A stretch of 47,734 nucleotides of DNA from Gammaproteobacteria bacterium (GTDB lineage Bacteria; Pseudomonadota; Gammaproteobacteria; Steroidobacterales; Steroidobacteraceae), in contig JAJPKM010000047.1 in the NCBI GenBank assembly GCA_021323735.1, positions 1-47,734 of the forward strand, written 5' to 3'. The translations under genes were made by a program, and so were the position numbers. The notes under the pieces are model-generated. The model had not been told where the DNA came from and did not search any database. It saw nothing but the letters and a program-made list of their open reading frames with translations. Shown here piece by piece: positions 9,311-23,149 of this stretch. The stretch's first letter is position 1. Each line of letters starts with the position of its first letter.

Positions 9311-9409
9311 GCGCGGCGTTACCGGGCCGGGCCGTGGGGCCGACCACGACCGGCACCGTGCGCCTCGCATCGGCCCATGCCGCCAAGGCGGCGCGAAATG
9401 TTCACCGGC

Positions 9410-10346: not shown

Positions 10347-11270
10347 ATGAACACGCATGCGGCGCCCGGCGTCAGCGCTTTGACGCATCTACAGGGCCTC
10401 GAGTCCGAGAGCATCCACATCATGCGTGAGGTCATCGCCGAGTGCGAAAAGCCCGTCATGCTGTATTCGATGGGCAAGGACAGCGCCGTCATGCTGCATC
10501 TTGCCCGCAAGGCCTTCTTCCCCGGTACCCCGCCCTTTCCGCTGCTGCACGTCGACACGACTTGGAAATTTCGCGATATGTATGCGATGCGCGATCAGGT
10601 CGCCAAGAACAGTGGGATGCAGCTGATCGTGCATCGAAATCCCGACGCCGTGGCGCGCGCCATCAATCCCTTCGATCATGGCGCTCTGCATACCGACCTC
10701 TGGAAAACCGAAGGTCTCAAGCAGGCCCTGACGCAATTCGGATTTGACGCCGCCTTCGGCGGTGCGCGGCGCGACGAAGAGAAATCCCGCGCCAAGGAGC
10801 GCGTTTTCTCATTTCGGTCGGCCAGTCATCGGTGGGATCCGAAAAATCAGCGTCCCGAGCTTTGGAATCTCTATAATCCGCGCAAGCTCAAGGGCGAGAG
10901 CATCCGTGTGTTCCCGCTCTCGAACTGGACGGAACTCGACATCTGGCAGTACATCCACCTGGAAAACATTCCCATCGTGCCGCTGTACTTTGCCGCCCCG
11001 CGGCCGACGGTGCAGCGCGACGGCCTGCTGCTCATGGTGGATGACGAGCGCTTCCGGCTGCGCCCCGGCGAAGTACCTGTTCAGCGTTCGATCCGGTTCC
11101 GCACACTCGGCTGTTACCCTCTCACCGGCGCGGTCGAAAGCAGCGCAATGGCCGTACCGCATATCATCCAGGAAATGCTCTTGACCACGACCTCGGAACG
11201 GCAGGGCCGCGCCATCGACCACGACCAGGCCGCCTCGATGGAGCAGAAGAAACAAGCCGGGTATTTCTGA
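10347..11270 (+). CDS. cysD: Sulfate adenylyltransferase subunit 2 (CysD)
   Basis: CysD is the ATP-pyrophosphatase-type subunit that, with the CysN GTPase, makes adenosine 5'-phosphosulfate from sulfate and ATP. The 307-residue protein carries the PP-loop region ([20 protein letters not shown], about 36-55) and CysD blocks [35 protein letters not shown] and [13 protein letters not shown]. Length and order match the family. The stop overlaps the cysNC start (TGATG), so subunits are made in equal amounts. It starts assimilatory sulfate reduction in the cytoplasm. Confidence 0.95.
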
Positions 11271-13183
11271 TGACGGGTGCGCCGACACATTCCTCGTATG
11301 GGGCGCATGCCCTCGCCGCCCAGGACATCGAGGCCTACTTGCTGCGACACCAGCACAAATCGCTGCTGCGATTCATCACCTGCGGGTCGGTCGACGACGG
11401 CAAATCCACTTTGATCGGGCGCCTGCTGTATGACAGCAAAATGATCTTCGAGGATCAACTAGCGACGTTGACCGCCGACAGCAAGCGCATCGGCACCCAG
11501 GGGCAAGAGATCGACTTCGCGCTGCTGGTCGATGGACTTGCCGCCGAACGCGAACAGGGCATTACGATCGACGTGGCCTATCGATTCTTCGCCACCGAGA
11601 AGCGCAAATTCATCGTTGCCGACACGCCCGGCCACGAACAATACACACGCAACATGGTGACCGGCGCCTCGACCGCGGATCTGGCCATCATTCTCGTCGA
11701 TGCGCGCAAAGGGATTCTGACGCAGACGCGCCGCCACAGTTATCTTGCTCATCTTTTAGGCATCAAGAAGCTGGTGCTGGCCATCAATAAAATGGACTTG
11801 GCCGGCTACTCGGAGGCGCGATTCAGCGCGATCGTGGCCGAGTACCGAAGTTTTGCCGACAGCATCGGCATCCGCGATTTTCTTGCCGTACCCATTTCAA
11901 GTCTGGCCGGCGACAACATCGTCACCTCCTCCGAGAATACGCCGTGGTATCTCGGTCCGCCCCTCCTGTCGCATCTCGAGAACGTCGAGATCGACAGCTC
12001 AGCTTTGCAGTTACGGCCGTTTCGAATGCCGGTGCAATGGGTCAATCGTCCGGACCTCGATTTTCGCGGTTTCGCCGGACTGATTTCCGAAGGCCTCGTG
12101 CGACCGGGCGACGCGGTGCGCGTGCTGCCGTCGGGCAGGACTTCGACGGTGGCGCGGATCGTTACCGCTGATACGGATCTTCGGTCCGCAGCGGCGGGAC
12201 AATCCGTGACCATTACTTTGACCGATGAGCTGGATTGCAGCCGTGGGGATGTGCTCGCCGCGGCCGAGCACCCGCCCGAGGTTGCCGACCAGTTCGAGGC
12301 AGTGCTCGTATGGATGGCCGATGAGCCGCTGCTTCCCGGGCGACCTTATTGGCTGAAACTCGCCACGCAGTGGGTAACCGCAACGATCCACAATCCCAAG
12401 TACCAAATCAACGTCAATACGATGGAGCACCTGGCGGCCAGAACCTTGAGTCTCAACGCCATCGGAATTGCGAATCTATCGACTGACAAGCCGCTGATTT
12501 TCGAGCCCTACGAGAAGAGCCGAGAGCTCGGAGGGTTTATCCTGATCGACAAGATCAGCAACGCCACGGTGGCCGCCGGCATGCTGCACTTCGCATTGCG
12601 CCGCTCCAGCAACATCCATTGGCAGCCGCTCGATATCGATCGCAATGCGCACGCTCGCCTCAAGCACCAGCATCCCCGTCTGCTGTGGTTTACCGGTTTG
12701 AGCGGCTCAGGAAAATCGAGCATCGCGAATCTGGTGCAGAAGAAACTCTATGCGCTCGGCAAGCACAGCTTCCTGCTCGACGGCGACAACGTCCGCCACG
12801 GTCTCAACAAGGATTTGGGGTTCACCGACGCCGATAGGGTCGAGAATATCCGCCGCATCGGTGAAGTCGCCAAGCTCATGACCGATGCCGGACTCATTGT
12901 GTTGGCCGCCTTTATTTCGCCATTCCGCGCGGAGCGGCGCATGGTCCGCGAAATGTCCCTGCCGGGCGAGTTCGTCGAAATCTATGTGGAAACACCGCTC
13001 GAAATCGCAGAGCAGCGCGATGTCAAAGGGCTGTACAAAAAGGCCAGAGCCGGCGAGTTGAAACATTTCACCGGCATCGATTCGCCCTACGAGACGCCCG
13101 AGCACCCGGAAATTCGGGTCAATACGGTAGAAACCACCGCAGAACAAGCTGCGGATGAAATCGTTGCCTACATCATGCGATAA
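11270..13183 (+). CDS. cysNC: Bifunctional sulfate adenylyltransferase GTPase subunit / APS kinase (CysNC)
   Basis: The 637-residue fusion joins two activities. Residues about 30-440 are the CysN GTPase, related to EF-Tu: [10 protein letters not shown]-loop (about 39-47), switch region [26 protein letters not shown] and NKMDL. Residues about 460-637 are the APS kinase CysC, with a second P-loop [38 protein letters not shown], and [17 protein letters not shown]. Together with CysD it converts sulfate to PAPS. Translation is coupled to cysD through a 1-base overlap. The stop lies 14 bases before the tRNA-Pro repeat array, whose hairpins may also end this transcript from the other side. Confidence 0.95.
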
Positions 13184-13197
13184 GTGGTCTAAAGTAT

Positions 13198-13464
13198 TGG
13201 TCGGGGTGACAGGATTACTCGGCGCTACCGCGCCTCGCCCCTCCGGGGCCGCCCGCTGGGCGTTATCCTGTCCGTCGGGGCTCGAATCTAGAACCACTTC
13301 GACACGTCAAACAACTCGGACCGTGTAATTATGGTCGGGGTGACAGGATTATTCGGCCTGCGGCCTCACCCCTCCGGGGCCGCCCGCTGGGCGTTATCCT
13401 GTCCGCCGGGGCTCAAACCTAGGGCCATTTTCCGCACGCCAAACTACTCGTGCCTTTTTATTAT
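13198..13464 (-). repeat. Two tandem repeats (134 and 133 bp) containing the 3' end of tRNA-Pro
   Basis: TGGTCGGGGTGACAGGATT, the last 19 nt of tRNA-Pro (complement), occurs at 13198-13216, 13332-13350 and, in the tRNA itself, 13465-13483. The units between share a long near-identical GC-rich block (from CCCTCCGGGGCC through TTATCCTGTCCG) and diverge more in their remaining part. In each unit GACAGGAT from the tRNA piece (13208-13215, 13342-13349) can pair with ATCCTGTC (13265-13272, 13396-13403), giving a long hairpin with inner GC-rich stems. In the direction of tRNA transcription the repeats are directly downstream, the same layout as the 178-bp rtT repeats after E. coli tyrT. I see no protein-coding gene here. 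Confidence 0.85.
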
Positions 13465-13541
13465 TGGTCGGGGTGACAGGATTCGAACCTGCGACATCTA
13501 CGTCCCAAACGTAGCGCTCTACCAGTCTGAGCTACACCCCG
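13465..13541 (-). tRNA. tRNA-Pro (anticodon TGG)
   Basis: A complete 77-nt tRNA with encoded CCA. Acceptor CGGGGTG pairs with CACCCCG, the D-arm reads GCTCAGACTGGTAGAGC, the anticodon loop TTTGGGA gives TGG, and the T-arm contains GGTTCGAATCC. It lies 56 bases downstream of the CoA transferase stop on the same strand. I found no strong promoter in that gap, so readthrough from the gene or a weak own promoter are both possible. Confidence 0.95.
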
Positions 13542-13597
13542 GGTATCGCTGGGTCCCGACCGGGCGGCAATCCTAACAGGTCGGCGCCCAAGTTTCC

Positions 13598-14779
13598 CTA
13601 CCGCCCTCCGGAGTCGTTTGCCGCCTTCATGGAGCGAATGCTGCCTAAGATAGCGGCGGTATCGGCGCCCAACAGCGGCGAGGCGCCCTGGATACGGCCG
13701 GGGGTTTCCGACAGCTGCACCGGGACGCCGAGCACCTGGATCGGGCCGGCGACCGGGTGCTCCACGGTAGGTGTCATATTGCGCGCGGCCGTTTGCGCAT
13801 CGTCGATGACCTCCTTGAGGTTCCGCACCACGGTGGCGGGTACGCCGTGTTCGCCAAGCAATTTGACCCAGTGCGCGGCCGGACGCGAACGAAACATGGC
13901 CTCGAGGACCGGCTCCAGTACCCCGCGGTTCTTCACGCGCAGCGGGTTGGTCTTGTAGTCAGCGTGCTGCGCAAGATCGGTCCTGCCGATGGCCTCGCAG
14001 AAACTCCTCCACAGCTTGTCGCTCGCCACGGCAAGGGTGATTTCCCGGTCCGCGCAAACGAAATTTCGGTAAGGAACGATCCCCTCGAACAGGGTTCCCA
14101 TGGGTTTGGGCACCACGCCCGACGCCAGATAACGCGCAAAGCTGGGGAGCATCGTGGACATGACGGTATCCATCATGGAAACGTCCACGAATTGCCCGCG
14201 GCCCGTGCGGTGACGCGCCTCGATGGCCATCATCGCGCCGATCAAGGAGAACAGCCCCGCCGTGATGTCCGCAATCGAGTGTCCGGTTTTGACGGTCTCA
14301 CCCGCGGCCGTTCCCGTGATGCTCATCAGCCCCGAGGCCGACTGGATAATCAGATCCATCGCCGGCTCCAGACGTCTCGGTCCTGTCTGCCCATAGCCGG
14401 ATATCGACACATAGATGAGCCGCGGATTCGCCGCAGACAGCGAGGCGTAGTCCAATCCAAGACGATTCATGGTGCCCGGCCTGAAATTCTCGATCACGAT
14501 ATCCGCTTTCGCGGCCAGTTGACGGCAGACATCGAGACCCTCCGGGGTCTTGAGGTCGATCGCCAGGCTTTGTTTCCCGCTGTTGAGCCCCACGAAATAT
14601 GCCGCATCGGGGCCATGAAACGGCGGCCCCCAGGTACGCCCGATATCTCCTTCAGGGCCTTCGACTTTGATCACCTTGGCGCCGTATGCCGCCATCAGCA
14701 TGGTGCAATACGGACCGGCAAGGGCGTGGGAAAAATCCAGAACGGTCAAGCCGTCCAAGGGTGGCGAAGAATTTTTCAT
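13598..14779 (-). CDS. CaiB/BaiF-family CoA transferase
   Basis: This 393-residue protein is a class III CoA transferase, which moves CoA between carboxylic acids. LTVLDFSHALAGPYCTMLMA (about 10-29), GAKVIKVEGPEGDIGR, NSGKQSLAIDLKTPEG, ENFRPGTMNRLGLDY and SGYGQTGP are family hallmarks. The Asp in EPAMDLIIQSASG is the expected catalytic aspartate that forms the acyl anhydride. Length fits the family. The substrate cannot be read from sequence, and the neighbours (tRNA-Pro, DUF883) give no pathway context. The 142 bases upstream hold its promoter region but no recognisable gene. Confidence 0.9.
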   Translation of the reverse strand: MKNSSPPLDGLTVLDFSHALAGPYCTMLMAAYGAKVIKVEGPEGDIGRTWGPPFHGPDAAYFVGLNSGKQSLAIDLKTPEGLDVCRQLAAKADIVIENFRPGTMNRLGLDYASLSAANPRLIYVSISGYGQTGPRRLEPAMDLIIQSASGLMSITGTAAGETVKTGHSIADITAGLFSLIGAMMAIEARHRTGRGQFVDVSMMDTVMSTMLPSFARYLASGVVPKPMGTLFEGIVPYRNFVCADREITLAVASDKLWRSFCEAIGRTDLAQHADYKTNPLRVKNRGVLEPVLEAMFRSRPAAHWVKLLGEHGVPATVVRNLKEVIDDAQTAARNMTPTVEHPVAGPIQVLGVPVQLSETPGRIQGASPLLGADTAAILGSIRSMKAANDSGGR

Positions 14780-21779: not shown

Positions 21780-23149
21780 GTGCGGCCCCCCGCCTTGTCC
21801 TCGAGAACGATACCCTCCGCCGCCAGCAGATTTCGGATTCGATCCGACTCCGCGAAATCCTTCGCGTTTCGCGCGGCCCGGCGCGAGGACAGCAACTCCT
21901 CCACCTGCTCATCGGACAAACCCTTGTTCACGGCGCTGCGCTTCAGGTAAGTATCCGGGTCTTGCTGCAGCACCCCGAGCGTTGCGGCGAGGGACTTAAG
22001 CGTGGCTGCCGCCACGGCCGTCTTGGCGGTATCGCCCGCCGCCTTCGCGAGATTCAAGCTGCGCGCCACGCCCTGGATGACGGCCAGTGCCTCCGGCGTA
22101 TTGAAGTCATCGTTCATGGCATCGCGGAAACGCTCCACTTCAGCGGCGTCGGCCGATCCTGAGGGCCCGGCGTCTTTCAGCGCTCGGTACAAACCCAGCA
22201 ATGTCTCGTCCGCCTGAGCCAGCTGCGCGGCCGAATAGTTGATCGGACCGCGGTAGTGGCTGCTCAACAGGAAAAAGCGCAATACCTCAGGGTCACGCAA
22301 GGTTTTGAGCACATCGCGCACGGTGAAGAAATTGCCCAGCGATTTCGACATTTTCTCATCGTTGACGCGGACGAAACCATTGTGCATCCACACGCGCACG
22401 AAGGGCGTGCCGCACGCCGCGCAGGACTGCGCGATCTCATTCTCGTGGTGGGGAAATTTCAGGTCCTCTCCCCCGCCATGCAGATCGAAATAGCCGCCCA
22501 ACAGGCTCGTCGACATCGCCGAACATTCTATGTGCCAGCCCGGCCGGCCGGCGCCCCAGGGCGAAGCCCATGAGGGTTCTCCCGGCTTGGCGTGTTTCCA
22601 AAGGACAAAATCCAGCGGATCGAGCTTGGCCTCGTCGATCCGGATGCGCGAACCGGCGCGCAGGTCATCGATCTTCTTGCCCGACAGCCGACCATAGTCC
22701 GCGAACTTTCGCACCGAATACATCACATCGCCGCTGGCGGCTGCGTAGGCGTAACCCTTGTCGATCAGGGTCTGGATCATGTCGATGATCGGCCCGATGT
22801 ACTGCGTGGCCCGCGGTTCCAGATCCGGCTCTTGAAGCCCCAAGGTCTTGCAGTCCTCGTGCATGGCAACGGTGAAGCGCTGCGCCAGATCCGCCCAATT
22901 CTCGCCGTTCGCGGCCGCACGCTCGATGATCTTGTCGTCGATGTCCGTGACGTTGCGCACGTAGGTCACCTTGTAGCCTAGCGAGCGCAAATAGCGCTGG
23001 ACCAGATCGAACGCCACCAACATCCGGGCATGCCCGACGTGGATGTAGTCATAGTTGGTCATGCCGCAGACGTACATGCGGACTTCATTCGGGAAAAGAG
23101 GCTTGAACTCCTCTTTTTCGCCGGTCAGCGAGTTATGGATTTTGAGCAT
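21761..23149 (-). CDS. cysS: Cysteinyl-tRNA synthetase
   Basis: This 462-residue class I synthetase attaches cysteine to tRNA-Cys. Visible motifs are [20 protein letters not shown] (first zinc-ligand Cys, and HVGH in place of HIGH), [13 protein letters not shown] and [19 protein letters not shown] (zinc site and cysteine recognition), and the KMSKS loop in [12 protein letters not shown]. The C-terminal part contains the DALR helical bundle. The start overlaps the gltX stop by 17 bases, so the two synthetases are coupled. Confidence 0.97.

Follow-up and report, generated by a model that had tools for sequence, protein, structure and literature searches.

The rtT repeats of E. coli and the insertions found within ERIC sequences are old observations that, to our knowledge, have no accepted explanation, and we know of no established mobiliser of the Rickettsia palindromic elements. 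Cromie et al. and Sharp, both in 1997, reportedly described insertions of ~70 bp within ERIC sequences. Two 1997 papers on insertions in ERIC are cited in PMC3696847, and PMC10969869 presents the Rickettsia elements as short palindromic sequences of ~150 bp that lie in frame in protein genes. The RefSeq annotation of rtT reads "processed from tyrT transcript", and an RtT sRNA is given as up-regulated in the cold in Thioalkalivibrio in PMC8092127.

The array behind tRNA-Pro and its likeness to rtT

We analyzed a stretch of 47,734 nucleotides (the window) in which an earlier note, made from the sequence alone, had pointed to tandem repeats that each carry the 3' end of a tRNA. The array proved to be real. 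The gene for tRNA-Pro(TGG), called by ARAGORN at 13465..13541 on the minus strand (T-arm GGTTCGAATCC), is followed by unit 1 of 133 nt (13332..13464, minus) and unit 2 of 134 nt (13198..13331, minus), both delimited by sequence reading; because the tRNA lies on the minus strand, downstream means toward lower coordinates. The tRNA and the two units abut without a gap. The last 19 nt of the tRNA, AATCCTGTCACCCCGACCA (13483-13465), recur exactly at the close of unit 1 (13350-13332) and of unit 2 (13216-13198), and the two units are 90% identical across a 68-nt inner part. Read along the minus strand, each unit begins AT-rich, passes through less conserved sequence, and then continues with GACAGGAT, AA, hairpin H2 (CGCCC...GGGCG), hairpin H3 (GCCCC...GGGGC/T), GA, hairpin H4, GARTA, and ATCCTGTCACCCCGACCA. 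The three-hairpin core occupies 13346..13393 (minus) in unit 1, as H2-H3-GA-H4-GAATA, and 13212..13262 (minus) in unit 2, as H2-H3-GA-H4-GAGTA; both units have a compact form in which an H1/P1 part was not seen.

GACAGGAT is antisense to the 3' strand of the tRNA T-stem and serves as the 5' arm of a putative closing stem, P0, at 13396..13403 (minus) in unit 1 and 13265..13272 (minus) in unit 2. The partner ATCCTGTC is present in both units, so that minus 13403-13396 faces 13349-13342 in unit 1 and minus 13272-13265 faces 13215-13208 in unit 2. These are the arms of the fold-back described in the earlier note; the minimum-energy fold contains this stem in unit 2 and lacks it in unit 1.

The end of unit 2 lies 14 nt from the stop codon of a convergent gene (11270-13183), which we judged by eye to be of the cysN/cysC type. 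A promoter and terminator scan of 13100-13700 returned no promoter-like site and a single terminator-like site, at minus 13154-13137 within the convergent gene, where 0.5 would be expected by chance. At gathering thresholds, Rfam reported four tRNAs and nothing else in the whole window.

Folding energy alone was uninformative as proof of structure, with z scores of only -0.7 to -1.9: folds as good were found in 10 of 200 shuffles for unit 2 (z -1.9), 51 of 200 for unit 1 (z -0.7), and 22 of 200 for both units jointly (z -1.2). The predicted structure rests instead on the comparison between related cores. Among nine such cores, 99.2% of 130 cells were paired and 7 cells carried double changes, and neither figure was reached in 500 shuffles. 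The covariation score was likewise reached by 0 of 500 shuffles, the number of pairs with double changes by 6, and the number of further pair types by 93. Compensatory changes, which the earlier note had proposed to look for in relatives, are present in these cores.

The nine cores, four from the window genome and five from three genomes of its family, with no E. coli sequence among them, were made into a covariance model, R1. A first alignment, A1, was not used for the model, as its long H2 hairpins were mis-aligned. The core of unit 1 scores 62.5 bits and that of unit 2 71.1 bits with R1, both being members of its training set. R1 is short, lacks H1, and was trained on related units whose hairpins resemble those of other GC-rich repeats; thus, some weak distant matches may be convergent. 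Two very weak matches elsewhere in the window (9347-9393, 13.4 bits; 22541-22582, 11.1 bits) are probably due to chance.

At a permissive threshold and in a search space of 501 nt, the Rfam RtT model (RF00391) aligned with unit 2 at 28.1 bits (E 0.002) and with unit 1 at 20.7 bits (E 0.14). Both alignments span model positions 1-130 of 130 and place the closing stem, the hairpins, and the tRNA tail in the same order; that of unit 1 contains many non-standard pairs, and that of unit 2 skips part of the model. Because both scores lie under the gathering cut-off of 45 bits, we call the array RtT-like rather than a member of RtT. Like rtT, it consists of tandem units, and each is closed by a copy of the final 19 nt of its tRNA. 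In another genome of the genus (G004), three units behind tRNA-Gln scored 47.0, 41.3, and 31.9 bits over model positions 1-130, the first above the cut-off. Conversely, all three rttR units of E. coli K-12 were recovered with R1 (41.5 bits, E 3e-11), as was a fourth K-12 unit between tyrT and tyrV (27.6 bits). A 90-nt core segment from window unit 2 gave no BLASTN match in E. coli, and the link is made through covariance models only. As judged from these sequence and model comparisons, the likeness to rtT is more than an analogy, and the window units are related to it by homology. The earlier note had expected that the rtT layout on a different tRNA and lineage would point to something recurrent; the layout indeed recurs on many tRNAs and in many lineages, related to rtT by sequence and structure. 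By analogy with rtT, a discrete RNA made from the window array is plausible.

tRNA targets, tails, and the hairpin core

Among 41 distinct tRNAs examined in the window genome (out of 43 Rfam matches), eight have tail copies within 2 kb, as identified by sequence, and degraded units of Gln-ttg and Arg-acg were detected by BLAST. Units were found at 10 of the 16 tRNAs with the T-arm TTCGAATC and at none of the 25 others (Fisher p 7e-6), a comparison in which four tRNAs, three of the 25 others and Tyr among the six unit-less TTCGAATC tRNAs, had at most 138 nt of downstream sequence.

We then considered 166 distinct R1 matches from 132 sources, which were picked from the best matches rather than as a random sample and drawn from two alignments (150/152 and 40/40 stored matches). 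A same-strand tRNA ends at most 700 nt upstream of 89 of them. The tail is identical to the last 18 nt of that tRNA in 58 of the 89 and differs from it by at most 4 mismatches in 73. Among the remaining 16, seven agree over 8-12 nt at the start, beyond which they diverge or cannot be read, one agrees with a tRNA called without CCA, and eight agree over no more than 6 nt. With at most 2 mismatches allowed, the tail fitted its own tRNA in 69 of 89 cases, as compared to 1250 of 16639 draws with the tail of a different tRNA. Units thus usually carry the 3' end of their own tRNA. The earlier note had proposed looking in relatives for the same block behind other tRNAs, and it was found there on at least 17 tRNA kinds, the number of anticodons represented by the 73 well-matched tails; tRNA-Lys(ttt) (L240) and tRNA-Glu(ttc) (L223), which stand outside this count, carry units too. 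TTCGAATC is present in the tRNA of 87 of the 89 matches, the exception being a tRNA-Ser with TTCAAATC and two matches (L104); outside the 89, the tRNA-Glu of L223 has TTCGACTC. For the other 77 matches, no same-strand tRNA was found within 700 nt upstream in the stretch examined, and 17 of these nevertheless end in a tRNA-like CCA tail.

Some loci showed further features. Behind tRNA-Ser(cga) of the window genome (L255, C36:28800-34518), two more tail copies, each preceded by hairpins, lie ~5 kb apart and enclose several ORFs, one of which resembles a restriction endonuclease by eye; these copies may mark the borders of an island. In the interval that separates tRNA-Asn from its two units (L053 1329-2540, window genome C14), we noticed ORFs that by eye are IS3/IS481-like transposases, and the same tRNA-Asn region contains an Rfam DUF3800-IX RNA (L006 2543-2613, minus; 38.3 bits, above the cut-off of 36.8). 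A sub-threshold group I intron match was seen at L076 1755-1950, minus (40.9 bits, cut-off 50, E 3e-7).

The sequence that follows the tRNA is often repeated as well. The 12 nt that directly follow the tRNA recur after the unit, with at least 9 of 12 positions identical, in 17 of 45 single-unit loci, as compared to 0.5% of permuted pairs. In the other 28, the flanks behind tRNA and tail do not clearly match, for which we propose decay or another origin. The repeated flank ends at the terminator U-run in L124, L140, and L116, where the antisense tRNA end stands at once or within a few nucleotides; the similarity covers all 45 nt compared in L125, L128, L103, L138, L161, and L182 and stops short of 45 nt in L107, L113, L126, and L167. 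Where the similarity stops thus varies between loci. In 29 of 72 units, the 3' part of the tRNA recurs in antisense over at least 11 exact nucleotides, about three times the 12% obtained with tRNAs of other amino acids, a control whose background is high because T-arms are alike. Closing stems of at least 7 pairs with the unit's own tail were found in 29 of 72 units as compared to 14.9% in permuted controls. The duplications at tRNA sites are long and often include the terminator. A unit therefore looks like a duplication of tRNA nucleotides 59-76 plus flank, with the element between the two copies.

Copies without a tail reveal where the element starts and ends. The conserved part is a hairpin cluster of ~75 nt at the T-loop (A58/A59), shortened to ~50 nt in the compact form of the window. 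The layout GA-H1-RA-H2-H3-GA-H4-GARYA, with a few variants allowed, was found in 36 distinct stretches within 759 kb of fetched loci (overlaps included, and some of the 36 being near-duplicates) and in none of five dinucleotide shuffles. H1 lies outside R1, and every one of its positions 2-7 shows 3-5 pair types; because the layout parse demands pairing, it is the variety of pair types and not the pairing itself that counts as evidence. A looser parse, loose on H1 and with some starts mis-set where the 36-stretch layout is stricter, accommodated 111 of the 166 matches; the median length of the insert is 75 nt, and 44 of the 111 stand immediately after TTCGA or TTCAA.

The core is also found away from tRNA 3' ends. 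By eye, it sits in two copies of tRNA-Ser, in the D-loop of one (L179) and the anticodon loop of the other (L175), as well as in a second copy of a tRNA-Gln (L137). At L145 and L172, the core lies in frame within a protein gene; two homologues of this gene, on Agarilytica and Shinella plasmids, miss a 25-column in-frame block, and the Agarilytica homologue is annotated beside a recombinase gene. We noticed no target duplication by eye at the gene site. Nine of ten places fetched from one genome (L236-L239, L241-L245) lie within repeats that we take to be ERIC, and the tenth (L240) lies behind tRNA-Lys. E. coli E2348/69 carries a similar copy in an ERIC-like repeat (L250, R1 40.4 bits). The window units themselves stand behind tRNA-Pro and not within an ERIC repeat; the H1-H4 layout and length of the ERIC insertion recur in the wider family, whereas the window units are compact and without H1.

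Two other dispersed repeats were seen to contain the core, one at L130 and L152-L156 (G390) and one at L230-L235 (G787), and one of the two is of the CGTCATTGCGAGG...CTCGCAATGACG palindrome type. A weak R1 match of the window genome (L254, C5:76270-76318, 28.1 bits) lies in a coding-looking region in which CAGGATGGCCCGAGTCAA is present twice.

According to the earlier note, a repeat scattered through the genome without tRNA fragments would be an ordinary dispersed repeat. This was borne out in part: tail-less copies in a gene, in ERIC-like repeats, and in other repeats make it a dispersed element, but in the loci examined it remains concentrated at tRNA genes.

Spread over genomes and strains

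R1 matched 28 of 60 genomes in the search of relatives, the window genome included, at E<=1e-3; within the genus, 18 of 23 genomes had a match and 5, incomplete genomes among them, had none. In samples taken across the class and across the phylum, R1 matched at E<=1e-5 at least 96 of 369 class genomes (80 of 272 genera) and at least 58 of 398 phylum genomes. Of the latter, 27 do not belong to the class, and a single family accounts for 26 of these; two loci of that family (L213, L214) are by eye the same as two records labelled Zetaproteobacteria. The RtT model passed its cut-off in at least 23 of the 369 class genomes and reached E 1e-4 in at least 56. The wide R1 and RtT searches scored the best 8-16 candidates per genome, so that all these wide-search counts are lower bounds. 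A pattern scan yielded 20 named loci, with a same-strand tRNA upstream of the match in 15; they include Halopseudomonas laoshanensis, Pseudomonas saudimassiliensis, Marinobacter, Candidatus Thiodiazotropha, one Chromatiales MAG, and two Zetaproteobacteria MAGs. Among 13 closely searched genomes, 12 had 2-16 R1 matches and one had 0. A BLASTN search of phages and plasmids with one tRNA-Arg unit gave no match.

Some of these loci deserve mention. Six units that are near-identical by eye follow a tRNA-Tyr at a spacing of 167 nt (L246, G781). L225 and L249 (G776, G466) have three R1 matches each and share a tail, ACCGGGGAC..., that is not a recognised tRNA end, and no tRNA was called upstream within the stretch examined. 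Units at L003 1492-1584, L008 1497-1594, and L057 1641-1677 have sub-threshold matches to AaHKsRNA22 (RF02902) and whalefall-1 (RF01762), which may be relatives of the units.

Closely related genomes differ in the presence of units. In G008, of the same genus, an identical tRNA-Pro is followed by no unit in the next 500 nt. Among 40 of 5391 matching E. coli records, the number of annotated RtT copies ranged from 0 (6 records) to 4. Strain G12 carries no unit at its two tRNA-Tyr genes, Z1323HEC0016 carries a single unit, which follows the second tRNA-Tyr gene, and K-12 carries three units plus one between the tRNA-Tyr genes; the tRNA-Tyr locus is without an adjacent R1 match in some E. coli strains (L251, L252). 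The allele differences in these strains begin and end at CCA, and their presence and absence can be deletion between repeats, which has the same look as insertion. At the level of the family, empty and filled sites comprise one gene, at the protein level, and the E. coli tyrT/tyrV alleles, which may be deletions. No de novo insertion was seen.

Explanations for the family and its place among known systems

We consider it likely that the units are copies of a small non-autonomous mobile element, whose target tRNAs are rescued by duplication and whose arrays are resized by recombination. The element would be ~75 nt long (~50 nt in the compact form of the window) and consist of adjacent hairpins H1-RA-H2-H3-GA-H4 with short spacers and the end GARYA. 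It would insert mostly at YGA^A-like sites, with a preference for the tRNA T-loop TTCGA^ATC, between A58 and A59. The tRNA 3' part (nucleotides 59-76, often with the terminator) would be duplicated, leaving the real tRNA intact and giving the unit a tRNA 3' end; through this duplication, the tRNA would survive the insertion. As an antisense copy of the tRNA 3' part often stands at the start of the element, a unit could fold into a closed multi-hairpin RNA. Recombination between tail repeats would change the number of copies in an array. Transcription running on from the tRNA promoter would yield an rtT-like RNA, and the host would profit from the element secondarily or not at all.

This reading brings together the observed relation to rtT, the target rule in the window genome, the own-tRNA tails, the non-tRNA sites, the one empty and filled site, and the presence and absence in E. 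coli. From these, we infer mobility, as opposed to inheritance with local copying only, together with the mode of movement, transcription in this organism, and changes in array number. The low copy number counts against it, as it is unlike that of a busy transposon. As no protein is encoded in what is seen of the element, its mover would be something else. A Y1 transposase was considered as a required mover and not accepted: it was found in 63 of 96 element-positive as compared to 121 of 273 negative genomes (p 4e-4, uncorrected for genome size and kinship), a positive but weak association, and at E 1e-10 it was absent from 33 of the 96 element-positive genomes, the window genome included.

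A bolder version, to which we give little credence, unites rtT RNA with the ERIC insertions and with the tRNA-tail arrays in one protein-less family that moves through RNA: a structured RNA of ~75 nt would enter the loops of tRNAs and hairpin RNAs at YGA^A, and the interrupted precursor would be copied back beside the gene. Such copying back may account for duplications that start at A59, can take in the whole terminator, and have the antisense tRNA end in front of them. The flank stops at the U-run in the three loci named above, but elsewhere it runs on or stops earlier, and the pattern is therefore only a hint.

A regulatory small RNA of the rtT type, conserved by selection, processed from the primary tRNA transcript, and acting in translation or stress control, would explain the spread over tRNAs as recruitment rather than parasitism. 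It agrees with the compensatory changes, with the annotation of rtT as a processed RNA and the cold response in Thioalkalivibrio, and with closing stems that are longer with a unit's own tail than with the tails of other tRNAs. We nonetheless regard it as unlikely, considering the five genomes of the genus without a match (incomplete ones among them), the bare tRNA-Pro of G008, the E. coli strains without a match beside the tRNA-Tyr locus, and the similar element in a gene and in ERIC-like repeats.

The tRNA T-loop is a known place of integrase crossover, and tRNA 3' ends are classic attachment sites. The tails could accordingly be the attL and attR scars of tyrosine-integrase islands, as their start in the T-loop, the use of T-, D-, and anticodon loops (by eye), and the 5 kb that separate two tail copies behind a tRNA-Ser of the window genome would suggest. 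Yet units of ~110-200 nt share a conserved hairpin core, the right junction, where GARYA meets ATCC, is without the 7-nt T-loop, and the element is also found away from tRNAs, which makes this origin very unlikely.

The decoy for tRNA 3'-processing enzymes suggested in the earlier note, or a variant in which the tails act as spare integration sites that shield the tRNA, fares worse still and is in our judgment highly improbable. The exact tRNA tails including CCA (58/89) speak for it. However, the units have neither the acceptor 5' strand nor the T-loop, and in the rtT-like fold the tail begins within a paired region, as inferred from the model; with no partner strand and a paired start, the tail is not a tRNA-like end. 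In addition, the tail is broken in 15 of the 89 matches with a nearby tRNA while the hairpin core persists, and the copies in genes, ERIC-like repeats, and D-loops are left unexplained. A local accident, in which the tRNA 3' end was simply duplicated in tandem and the hairpins arose by chance, can draw on the real duplication of tail and flank in 17 of 45 single-unit loci but is scarcely tenable, as it is already refuted by the recurrence of the same core at other tRNAs, in other genera, and at E. coli tyrT.

The kind of array seen in the window is already known. We found no description of rtT-like units on many tRNAs in the literature searched, which left most subscription journals outside and is thus weak evidence of novelty; within that limited literature, we met no account that brings together the occurrence on many tRNAs, the T-loop rule, the duplication of antisense copy and flank, and the link to insertions in ERIC and genes. 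If rtT, the ERIC insertions, and the arrays, which stand behind at least 17 tRNA kinds in Gammaproteobacteria and, by record labels, Zetaproteobacteria, are regarded as a single element that follows a simple target rule, they can be tested jointly. Such an element could explain some of the repeated tRNA 3' ends of these genomes, which matters for the annotation of tRNA-linked islands and small RNAs.

Among known systems, the Rickettsia palindromic elements resemble the family, by description only, in being short palindromic inserts in frame in protein genes; they differ in their hosts and in their length of ~150 bp (PMC10969869). The attachment sites of integrases in tRNA genes share the target in tRNA loops and the duplicated tRNA 3' end, whereas our units lack the shared 7-nt overlap at the right end. 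With the ERIC insertions, the agreement extends to R1 and the insert layout, both of which fit the copies in ERIC-like repeats, that of E. coli E2348/69 included; the host site there is ERIC and not a tRNA, and no tRNA tail is present. These core copies are probably the insertions of 1997. RtT/rttR (RF00391) differs from the window array, which lies behind tRNA-Pro, is compact (without P1/H1), and scores under the Rfam cut-off. The two nevertheless have in common tandem units closed by a tRNA 3' end, a closing stem formed by the antisense copy of that end, and the same hairpin module, for which the Rfam consensus reads ...GGCCCGAAGGGCGAGGCGCGAAGCGACGAGUA immediately before AUCC.
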